NCBI RefSeq assembly: GCF_018448785.1
Contig: NZ_JAHCLU010000002.1
Coordinates: forward strand, 124,001-188,000
Length of the DNA: 64,000 nt
Direction: 5' to 3'
Source: Halomonas jincaotanensis
Lineage (GTDB): Bacteria > Pseudomonadota > Gammaproteobacteria > Pseudomonadales > Halomonadaceae
The notes under the pieces were generated by a model, which saw nothing but the letters and a program-made list of their open reading frames with translations, was not told the DNA's origin and did no database searches. Below are positions 4,689 to 7,781 of this stretch, piece after piece. Position numbers and translations under genes: made by a program. Every line of letters starts with the position of its first letter. The first letter of the stretch is position 1.

Positions 4689-5528
4689 TCAGGGTTGCAG
4701 GGCTTCCAGCTGGGCGCTCATGGCAAGTTGCCCACGTCGCAACTCGGCAAGCTCATCTTCCAGGACATTCAACCTCTCGACAGTGGCGCTGCTGCGCTGC
4801 TGGTCAGCATCCTGTGATGATTCAACGGATTCAATCGCTTCGGCGAATTGTGACTGACGGCTGTTGAAGTCCTCAAGCTGGCGTTGGGTACTGATCAATC
4901 GCTCTTCCAGCATAGACTGCTCGGTCTCGAGTGTGGCGATCGTCTCATTCTCGAGGGTGTCGATGCGTTGCTGATCACGCTCCCTGGCCTGGGCCATCGC
5001 CGTGAGACGTTCATCCAGCGCGGCTCGACCTTCTTCCCCAGCGCGTTCCAACGCATCCAGCGACATCCGCGCCGAGGCAAGCAAGGCATCGCGCGCCTCC
5101 GCGTCGCTCGCCGCTTCAGCTTGTCGAGTTTCCCATTCATCGAGGCGTTCATCCATGGTGGACAACTGGGCCTGCGCCCTTTCCTGAATGTCTTGGAGAC
5201 GCTCTTCGAAGGCCGAGTCACGCGCTTCGAGTGCCTCGAGACGGGATTCCAGCGATCTCAAGACGTCACCCTCTCCTTGTTGCGCCTCGAAACGTGCATG
5301 GACGTTGGACACCTCCCCGGTAAGCCGGGTCAATTCACGCTCGAATCGCGAACTTTCCTGCCAGCCGGTCCAGGCAAGTACCACGCAGCCAACCATCAGC
5401 AACAACACAAGCAACCACAGGGGCCACACCCGCGGCGCAGGCGGCTGACGCATGCGAGGTGCCAGGCTTGAATCCGGGTCCGGAACGATCGGTCGTGCAT
5501 GTCGGCGGTCTTCCGGGCGCTCTGCCAT
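4689..5528 (-). CDS. Single-pass membrane protein with a long periplasmic or cytoplasmic coiled coil
   Basis: Not assigned to a known function. The 279-residue protein has a short charged/Pro-rich N-terminus, one clear transmembrane segment at about residues 34-54 (WPLWLLVLLLMVGCVVLAW), and then about 210 residues of almost uninterrupted heptad-type coiled coil rich in Glu, Arg, Gln and Ala. There is no lipobox, enzyme motif or cysteine outside the membrane segment. A good purine-rich ribosome site (AAAGGAGTC) lies upstream of the ATG at 5528. It sits directly upstream of tamA on the same strand with a gap of about 40 bp, so an envelope scaffold role linked to TamAB is a reasonable but untested inference. 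Confidence 0.75.
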   Translation of the reverse strand: MAERPEDRRHARPIVPDPDSSLAPRMRQPPAPRVWPLWLLVLLLMVGCVVLAWTGWQESSRFERELTRLTGEVSNVHARFEAQQGEGDVLRSLESRLEALEARDSAFEERLQDIQERAQAQLSTMDERLDEWETRQAEAASDAEARDALLASARMSLDALERAGEEGRAALDERLTAMAQARERDQQRIDTLENETIATLETEQSMLEERLISTQRQLEDFNSRQSQFAEAIESVESSQDADQQRSSATVERLNVLEDELAELRRGQLAMSAQLEALQP

Positions 5529-5785
5529 GGCAGACTCCTTTCTTCGATCTTCATGCTTCGTGCGAATGACCTACCGCGGACGGCAGGGAGCGTCAGGTGA
5601 TGTATTCTCCTAGAGCGAGACGGCGTGTCGACGGCCTATGCAACCCGATACCCTGGTGCCGGGATGATAGTTTCAGAGCGTTTTCATAGTGTAAGGTTTT
5701 TTTCTGGCATGCACACGAGCTCCCGCCAACGCCCCGATGAACACGCCTATCCCCACGATTAACAGCGACGAGCGAGAATGGCCGT

Positions 5786-6379
5786 ATGACCTTCGAATTA
5801 CCCGCCCTTCCCTATGACAGGAACGCTCTGGAGCCCCATCTCTCTGCGGAAGCGCTCGATTATCACTATGGCAGGCTTCACCGCTCACATGTTGCTGCGC
5901 TCAACACATTGGTCGAAGGCACTGCGCTTGAAGGCAAGTCGCTCGAGGAAATTTTGCATGCCTCCAATGGACGCACGTCTGCTCAGGCGGCAGAGGTCTG
6001 GAACCATGCCTTTTACTGGCATTGTCTCGCGCCCAAAGGGGGTGGCGAGCCAACCGGTGCCCTGTCTGACGCCCTCACCGAGGCGTTTGGCGACCTCTCG
6101 ACGTTCAAGCAGGTCTTCCTTGCGAGCGCCATGGATAATGACGCGTCCGGCTGGACCTGGCTGATCAAGACTCCCAATGCCGGCATCGAGATTCTCAGCA
6201 CGGGCCACGCTGACACGCCCATTGCCCACGGTCGTATCCCGCTGCTCGCCATCGATGTCCACGAACATGCCTATGCCCTCGATTACGGCGATTCGCGCAG
6301 TCGCTATCTGGAAAACCTATGGCAGGTGATCAACTGGGATTTTATTGCACAGAACTTTTCTAGCCCTGACCTTCTCTAG
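5786..6379 (+). CDS. sodB: Superoxide dismutase, Fe/Mn family, with unusual second-shell residues
   Basis: Family of cytosolic Fe/Mn superoxide dismutases; 197 residues, the usual SodB length, aligning end to end with E. coli SodB by eye. All four metal ligands are present: His27, His74, Asp157 and His161. Several otherwise near-invariant active-site residues are replaced (E. coli numbering without Met): His30 is Leu (residue 31), Tyr34 is His (residue 35), Gln69 is Glu (residue 70), and Trp158 in the DVWEHAY motif is His (residue 159). These residues gate substrate and hydrogen-bond the metal-bound solvent. The fold is clear; normal dismutase activity is not assured. It stands alone, convergent with the dehydrogenase-like gene to its right. 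Confidence 0.85.
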   Translation: MTFELPALPYDRNALEPHLSAEALDYHYGRLHRSHVAALNTLVEGTALEGKSLEEILHASNGRTSAQAAEVWNHAFYWHCLAPKGGGEPTGALSDALTEAFGDLSTFKQVFLASAMDNDASGWTWLIKTPNAGIEILSTGHADTPIAHGRIPLLAIDVHEHAYALDYGDSRSRYLENLWQVINWDFIAQNFSSPDLL

Positions 6380-6482: not shown

Positions 6483-7781
6483 TCAGCGAGGATCGGCGCG
6501 TCTTCCTATGCCTCGATAGTGCAGCCCCTGGCTCGCCACCCAGTCCGGCTCGAAAATGTTACGACCGTCGAGCAGCAGTTTTTCGCCCAGCAGGCTGACC
6601 AGACGAGGCCAGTCGGGGTTCCAGTAGTCTTTCCACTCGGTCACAAGCAACAACGCGTCGGCGCCCTGGCAGGCCAAGTACGGGTCATCATCGAAGACCT
6701 CCAGCAGCGGGTGCTCGCCGACTTCGGCAAGCAATGCATGGATGGCTGACGGGTCGTGCAGCCGTACATGCACACCCTGGGCCCAGAGCGCACGAAGCAG
6801 GGTCAACACGGGCGCATGGTCGATACGTGCCGTACCCGGCTTGAAGGCCGCTCCCCAGATCGCCACGATGCGACCCTGCAATTGCCCATGGAAATGCGCC
6901 CAGAGCTTGCGGAACAGGGTCTCCTTCTTGTGCTCGTTGATGTCGAGCACCTGGTCGAGCAGCGCCGAGTGGCGGCCGCTCGACGATTGGACATCGGCCA
7001 GTCGCATCAGGTCACGCGAGAAGTTGGGGCCACCGAAGCCACAGCCAGGGTAGAGATATTCGTAGCCGATACGGGAGTCGGCACCCATTCCGCGGCGCAC
7101 GAACTCGACATCCACGTCCAGGGTGTCGGCTAGCCCGGCGATCTCGTTCATATAGCTGATTCGTGTGGCCAGCATGCCGTTGATCGCTAGCTTGGTCAGC
7201 TCCGCAGCCCGTCGCGGCATGCGCTGAATCACCTCGCTACGCCGGTTGAAGGCACGCAAAAGCTCGCGGACGCGCTTGGTGGCCTCCTCATCGTCACAGC
7301 CCAACAGCCAACGGCTAGGTCGCGAGAAAGTCTCCCAGGCGCGTCCCTCCTCCAGCAGGTCGGGAAGCGCGACGGCAGTCCCGCGACCCTGCAGCGAGGC
7401 TTCGAGGCGTTCGGTCTCACCCACCGGAAAAGTCGAATTATTCACCAGCACGAAGCCCTCGGCCACATGCTGAACGAGATGGCTGAGAAGTCGATCGCAA
7501 TCGCCGCGCTGTTCCGGCGACAGGGCCAGCCACAGGATTTCGATATCGTCACCGAGCGACACCAGCGAGTCGGCATTCTCAATCACACGTAGGCTCTTCT
7601 TGGCAACGCTCTCGTTCAGCTGCGCAATGAGCTGCGGTTCGCGAAGCAGCCAGTCGGACGCAGCCAGTTGTGGCCAGGAAGCCGTGGAATGGGGGAGCCA
7701 GATGACCTTGTGTCCCACCCAGGAAAGCGCCGCAGCAGCTGTGGCGGCTGACAGTTCACTGCCGTGTACCAGGATGCGCAT
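6483..7781 (-). CDS. UDP-glucose/GDP-mannose dehydrogenase-family protein lacking the catalytic cysteine
   Basis: The 432-residue protein has the three-part layout of UDP-glucose 6-dehydrogenases (Rossmann domain, central helical domain, C-terminal UDP-binding domain) and keeps the conserved Lys197/Asn201 segment (ELTKLAINGML). Two hallmarks are degraded. The N-terminal dinucleotide loop GxGYVG reads GSELSA (residues 7-12). The catalytic loop GFGGSCFPKD reads GFGGPNFSRD (residues 248-257), with Asn253 in place of the nucleophilic Cys. Cys247 lies six residues upstream, outside the usual position. It follows galU, which makes UDP-glucose, with a 3 bp gap, so the two are one transcription unit. 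A regulatory or binding role in nucleotide-sugar metabolism is possible; true dehydrogenase activity is doubtful. Confidence 0.8.
   Translation of the reverse strand: MRILVHGSELSAATAAAALSWVGHKVIWLPHSTASWPQLAASDWLLREPQLIAQLNESVAKKSLRVIENADSLVSLGDDIEILWLALSPEQRGDCDRLLSHLVQHVAEGFVLVNNSTFPVGETERLEASLQGRGTAVALPDLLEEGRAWETFSRPSRWLLGCDDEEATKRVRELLRAFNRRSEVIQRMPRRAAELTKLAINGMLATRISYMNEIAGLADTLDVDVEFVRRGMGADSRIGYEYLYPGCGFGGPNFSRDLMRLADVQSSSGRHSALLDQVLDINEHKKETLFRKLWAHFHGQLQGRIVAIWGAAFKPGTARIDHAPVLTLLRALWAQGVHVRLHDPSAIHALLAEVGEHPLLEVFDDDPYLACQGADALLLVTEWKDYWNPDWPRLVSLLGEKLLLDGRNIFEPDWVASQGLHYRGIGRRADPR

Follow-up and report, generated by a model that had tools for sequence, protein, structure and literature searches.

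A sodB orthologue with an altered active site

Positions 5786..6379 (+ strand) of the window, the whole 64,000-nucleotide stretch of Halomonas jincaotanensis DNA analysed here, hold an intact reading frame of 197 aa that runs from an ATG start to a TAG stop. Its frame, Pfam matches and alignment identify it as a full-length, altered sodB orthologue. The product matches Pfam Sod_Fe_N with 78.3 bits (cut-off 27) and Sod_Fe_C with 110.6 bits (cut-off 20.9). Its nearest type is the E. coli-type FeSOD, NCBIfam PRK10543 (the superoxide dismutase [Fe] equivalog), against which it scores 257.6 bits, below the curated cut-off of 348. Two conserved neighbours on the – strand mark the ancestral sodB locus: a gene for a coiled-coil protein (4689..5528) and a ugd-like gene for a UDP-sugar dehydrogenase (6483..7781). 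The gene is best explained as the vertically inherited sodB of the genus at its ancestral locus. A role deduced from the neighbours (TamA-like protein, coiled coil, UDP-sugar dehydrogenase) was rejected, since the same neighbours are found at the canonical SodB locus. The stretch upstream of the SOD start (5766-5785) reads GAGCGAGAATGGCCGT and is partly common to G039, a second species described below; many canonical genes carry AAGGAGA-type sites. An out-of-frame ATG GCC GTA TGA overlaps the SOD start in the window.

Alignment to E. coli SodB (mature numbering, used throughout) showed that all four metal ligands are kept: His26 (5864..5866, + strand, as for all residues below), His73 (6005..6007), Asp156 (6254..6256) and His160 (6266..6268), which are residues 27, 74, 157 and 161 of the reading frame. 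The three histidines and one aspartate of a functional FeSOD are thus in place. The second shell is changed by H30L (CTT, 5876..5878) and Y34H (CAT, 5888..5890), which replace gate residues, by Q69E (GAG, 5993..5995), which replaces the second-shell glutamine, and by W158H (6260..6262); these are residues 31, 35, 70 and 159 of the reading frame. The sequence-only reading had named the same four ligands and the same four changes, and its residues were right. It mixed two numberings, giving ligands by reading frame and changes by E. coli position, and its list of changes was incomplete, as it left out K29R, F64S, F118D, G119A and Y163A among others. In all, 19 of 82 reference sites (at least 97% identical across the 73 canonical SodBs of the family) differ in the window. 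Among them are the conserved aromatic residue at 64 (5978..5980), the conserved pair 118 and 119 (6140..6145), of which 118 belongs to the dimer interface in a related FeSOD, and Tyr163 (6275..6277), the cross-dimer partner of His30. Trp122 is unchanged. With Leu30, His34, Glu69, His158 and Ala163 the protein lacks the relay of a functional FeSOD. Nor is it a Mn-type SodA, defined here by Gly69 and by an active-site Gln that the C-terminal half contributes at the position aligned to 141: it has Glu69 and Ala141.

A SodB 77% identical to that of the window is encoded in G039 at the same locus, between the coiled-coil gene and the UDP-sugar dehydrogenase gene. It carries H30I, Y34H, Q69E, W158H, F118E, G119S and Y163A with unchanged ligands. 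Because a second species has a matching set at the same locus, the changes in the window are not due to chance or sequencing error. The changed positions had been described as highly conserved, and this held among the best 80 gammaproteobacterial SodBs from a profile search of genome contigs (mostly canonical, some of them family members): the ligands, His30 and Trp158 are intact in 80/80, and Tyr34 and Gln69 in 79/80 each. Outside the family these residues are fixed.

Expected activity and the Q69E step

Trp122-Gln69-Tyr34-water-His30-Tyr is the relay described for Plasmodium falciparum FeSOD, its last Tyr belonging to the other subunit; 15% of the buried dimer surface there comes from Phe118 (PMC1618392). 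By this order, every link beyond Trp122, together with the cross-dimer end, is replaced in the window protein. The residue equivalent to Tyr163 in human MnSOD is presumably Tyr166. For that enzyme k1 is listed as 1.5 in the wild type and drops to 0.2 with Y166F, 0.07 with Y34H and about 0.005 with H30V (PMC9208312, Table 1), each a single change in a human Mn enzyme rather than a bacterial Fe enzyme. All three sites are changed in the window, where Y34H is identical, position 30 is again aliphatic and 163 is Ala, in addition to Q69E and W158H. By analogy, little dismutase activity is a sensible forecast for the window protein.

By parsimony on a tree of neighbouring proteins, Gln69 was replaced 16 times, and 9 of these replacements were separate origins of Q69E. 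No other change at the 82 sites arose as often, Y34H and Y34C having 6 and 5 origins, respectively. Glu69 is also present in G172 and G226, both outside this tree. The canonical codon for Gln69 is CAG in 64/73 genes and CAA in 9/73, so that Glu is only one of several single-base neighbours. For E. coli FeSOD, Q69E is reported to increase the potential of the iron by more than 0.6 V. The corresponding change in MnSOD is reported to stabilise the metal-free protein, and the title of one paper refers to apo-MnSOD being stabilised by 35 degrees through an outer-sphere mutation. Two genes with partial ligand loss (G040 and G247) keep Gln69, which counts against a fixed order of steps.

Graded and recurrent loss of the active site across the family

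From each of 128 genomes of the family one SodB was read; these include every SodB, 88 in number, that turned up in the 90 genomes of the window's genus. Of the 128, 73 are canonical, 21 keep the ligands with a changed second shell and 34 have lost ligands; a manual tally of the 88 gave 63, 8 and 17, respectively. Living genomes present a series of steps: Y34H alone (G031); Y34H with Q69E (G007, G002); Y34C with Q69E (G107); H30Y, Y34C and Q69E (G029); the set seen in the window; then forms such as R26/L73/E156/R160 (G034) and L26/L73/A156/E160 (G214, genus g40). Tyr34 is changed in 34/34 ligand-loss genes. Nearly all altered SodBs (54 of 55) adjoin a ugd-, coiled-coil- or tamA-like neighbour, the exception being G247. 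In g40 the ligand-less gene has stayed at this locus in 16/16 genomes read, out of 18 covered by the search.

The tree of neighbouring proteins, built by a quick method for 95 of the 128 genomes, requires no fewer than 11 switches between the canonical and the altered state, of which well-supported branches force 8, and no fewer than 5 separate ligand-loss events, of which they force 5. The window and G039 form one pair on it, beside the canonical G019 and G113 and beside G002 (Y34H, Q69E). Support for the fork that joins them is 94%, below the level taken as well supported.

Second-shell sets from other genera include Y34S+Q69D (G132, L168), Y34I+Q69K+W158C (G131, L108), Y34F+Q69E (G172, L310), Y34S+Q69E (G226, L311) and H30Q+Q69E (G206, L169). 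All ten genomes of genus g49 carry H30V/I/Y with dN/dS of 0.08-0.10, comparable to canonical SodB. These otherwise strongly constrained genes (L113, L115, L117-L119, L127, L162-L165) also have G119M/Q. The g49 SodB may have remained active, with its gate built differently; its canonical-like constraint means that one second-shell change need not imply lost function.

Within the window's genus, 24 of the 88 SodBs (e.g. L132, L058, L020) are without a ugd or coiled-coil neighbour in the 2.2-4.6 kb retrieved, some of these loci ending at contig borders. All 24 are canonical, and sodB seems to have been moved or replaced in these genomes.

Altered SodBs occur in genomes with a second Fe/Mn-SOD

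A second, canonical sod, which the sequence-only reading had proposed to look for, was found in the window's genome: a Mn-type SodA with Gly69 and Gln141 (G000:C1:140960-141553), all of its residues intact. One Cu,Zn-type SOD match is also present. Adding 40 SodBs to the 128, we tallied 168 by hand, a few of them from incomplete genomes, and compared genomes with and without any other SodFM match. None of 43 SodB-only genomes has an altered SodB, compared with 57 of 125 genomes with a second SodFM (Fisher p 8e-10, a value that ignores kinship). Thus, a second Fe/Mn-SOD gene accompanies every one of the 57 altered SodBs, and it is a Mn-type SodA wherever it was read. The 22 SodA genes read all keep the ligands, His30, Tyr34 and Trp158. 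One g40 genome (G211) has three SodFM matches, namely one ligand-less SodB and two that are SodA-like by score.

In the sister genus g59, 76 of 82 genomes are without a SodB-type match, most of them keeping a SodA-type gene alone. This absence and the link with SodA indicate that SodB is dispensable where SodA is present. Three g59 genomes (G240, G241, G259; L166, L167, L122) carry a diverged SodB whose residues are canonical and whose ancestral neighbours are missing; it looks acquired.

SodA-SodB heterodimers occur in E. coli. Against the idea that altered SodBs serve as partners in such heterodimers, the ligand-less SodBs lose His160 and mostly Tyr163 at the interface.

Ligand-less SodBs are under purifying selection

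We estimated dN/dS by NG86 counting, which is crude for GC-rich genomes, in pairs that share species and so are not independent. Thirteen ligand-less pairs gave values of 0.12-0.52 with upper bootstrap limits of at most 0.74, and in each of them dN reached or exceeded dS in 0 of 1000 bootstraps; nine canonical pairs gave 0.05-0.21. The distance of SodB relative to that of neighbouring proteins rises from a median of 0.30 in canonical forms (33 tips) to 1.29 in second-shell forms (21) and 3.73 in ligand-less forms (32), the window SodB standing at 1.46. Constraint on ligand-less SodB is therefore weaker than on working SodB, yet present. The ligand-loss genes are open over 181-221 codons in 33 of 34 cases. 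In the remaining one, G122 (L151 4001-4600, from a draft that is 76% complete), the gene is frameshifted near the GWVWL motif.

The SOD fold is predicted to be kept in both the window protein and the ligand-less proteins. The model of the former has a pLDDT of 93.8 and superposes on 2nyb with a VIA-align Z of 31.3 and 1.0 A over 192 residues; that of the ligand-less G057 protein has a pLDDT of 90.4 and a TM of about 0.90 to FeSODs. Both were built from alignments of relatives and bear on the fold, not on metal or oligomer. Given purifying selection, open frames and the predicted fold, the ligand-less forms look like pseudoenzymes and not like debris; judged by sequence, the ligand-loss relatives tested would qualify as such, except for the frameshifted G122. 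The window protein has lost its second shell, keeps its ligands and shows a dN/dS of 0.22 (0.14-0.35) with its G039 counterpart.

Interpretation

We consider the window protein to be probably an FeSOD released by redundancy, which would have little dismutase activity and be on its way to a non-SOD role. With a canonical Mn-type SodA encoded at another locus, dismutation by SodB would be dispensable, and the proton relay and cross-dimer gate (Tyr34, Gln69, His30, Trp158, Tyr163, Phe118) would then have been lost with the primary metal site still intact. In this state the protein would most likely bind Fe or another divalent metal and dismutate superoxide poorly or not at all. Parallel lineages appear to have continued on the same path to loss of all ligands, with the protein retained by selection. 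Since the ligand-less proteins are so retained, the window protein probably serves, or is gaining, a function that depends on the fold rather than on the chemistry. Q69E would be the bridge, because a buried acid would both stabilise the metal-free protein and lock bound iron as Fe(II): if the effects reported for this change hold, iron would be locked first and the fold then freed from the need for metal. Counted against this reading are the unchanged ligands of the window and G039, though two 77%-identical sequences carry little weight, the His30 changes in g49 under canonical-like constraint, the lack of Q69E in two ligand-loss lineages (G040 and G247), and the G122 frameshift, as expected of decay.

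Decay without any new role would offer a simpler course, in which a redundant SodB under relaxed constraint is heading for loss and the ligand-less genes are slow-dying relics. The raised dN/dS and relative distance of the altered forms agree with it, as do the frameshift in G122, the changed ribosome-binding stretch of the window and G039 compared with canonical genes, and the 76 of 82 g59 genomes without a SodB-type match, most of them with a SodA-type gene alone. We nevertheless regard it as unlikely: neutrality was rejected in all 13 ligand-less pairs tested, all but one of the 34 ligand-less genes have an open frame (181-221 codons), and all 16 g40 genomes read have kept the gene in place. 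Constraint that is weaker but present makes co-option preferable to mere decay. It is harder still to credit that the ligands together with His34, Glu69, His158 and Asp118 serve a different or an additional metal, or a reaction of peroxidase or reductase type, even though the window and G039 keep all four ligands and share Y34H, Q69E and W158H, and second-shell residues set metal use in SodFMs, as stated in parts of PMC10172142 and PMC13008324. Relatives with the same early steps went on to lose their ligands, which is incompatible with a new metal reaction, and other gate sites vary between the window and G039 (H30L/I, F118D/E, G119A/S). The suggestion of the sequence-only reading that the enzyme has another metal or redox chemistry found no support here over erosion, although the ligands of the window are intact. 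Its other suggestion, a structural role, agrees with the comparative data, as does a loss of normal chemistry: sister lineages lost every ligand and the protein is still under purifying selection. Least probable is an ordinary active SOD in which unusual residues are tolerated. The H30V/I/Y changes under strong constraint in g49 set a precedent, but Y34H, H30V and Y166F singly cut k1 of human MnSOD about 7- to 300-fold (PMC9208312), and the window combines changes at those three sites with Q69E and W158H.

Beyond the preferred reading of the window protein as a redundancy-released FeSOD, we tentatively put forward a broader one, about which we are less confident. Nature may here have made pseudoenzymes repeatedly: under cover of SodA, the relay would be lost first (Tyr34, then Q69E) and the ligands next, and the emptied fold would be kept for a non-catalytic function in several lineages. 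Relay loss through Gln69 to Glu would itself render the metal-free protein stable. The window gene might then be a living intermediate in a series of which species at each step are extant.

The window protein resembles E. coli SodB (PDB 1isa) in sequence (51% identity), in its predicted fold over 192 residues and in its four ligands, and differs from it in that His30, Tyr34, Gln69, Trp158, Tyr163 and Phe118 are all replaced. The engineered E. coli FeSOD Q69E (PDB 2nyb, 2bkb), which has the same Gln69 to Glu change, is its top sequence match and among its top structural matches. There the change is single and engineered, whereas in the window it is natural and combined with others.

Parallels of this kind are already known, as inactive Cu,Zn-SOD decoys and as FeSODs that are RNA-polymerase subunits. 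The Cu,Zn-SOD fold is unrelated to the Fe/Mn-SOD fold, and the mitoribosomal mS42 and mS43 have the SOD fold but no catalytic metal site. Leporipoxvirus SOD decoys, as described in part of PMC10211241, are likewise catalytically inert dismutase homologues kept as proteins, although they are viral, belong to the Cu,Zn-SOD family and target a copper chaperone. PAP9/FSD2 and PAP4/FSD3 of the plastid RNA polymerase are FeSOD-fold proteins built into a complex, and recombinant PAP9 held zinc; these are eukaryotic and, in the excerpts of PMC8278866 that describe them, have conserved metal ligands. Part of PMC9892005 presents mS42 and mS43 as yeast mitoribosome proteins that bind rRNA; the word "superoxide" is absent from its text on them, and our literature search found no paper linking the two with superoxide dismutase. 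A search of the literature on SodFM pseudoenzymes and on Halomonas or Halomonadaceae superoxide dismutase found no published bacterial SodB parallel; the main text of PMC10172142 has neither "Halomonas" nor "pseudo", and that of PMC13008324 has no "Halomonas".

Homology-based annotation would label the altered sodB genes superoxide dismutase. The active site of Fe/Mn-SOD is a standard example of one regarded as frozen by function. A single family here displays its graded and independent dismantling in living species, with recurrent early steps and in strict association with a back-up enzyme. This opens to study the order in which an active site is disassembled, the part of Q69E as a stabilising bridge to a metal-free fold, and the use that a cell makes of an empty SOD.
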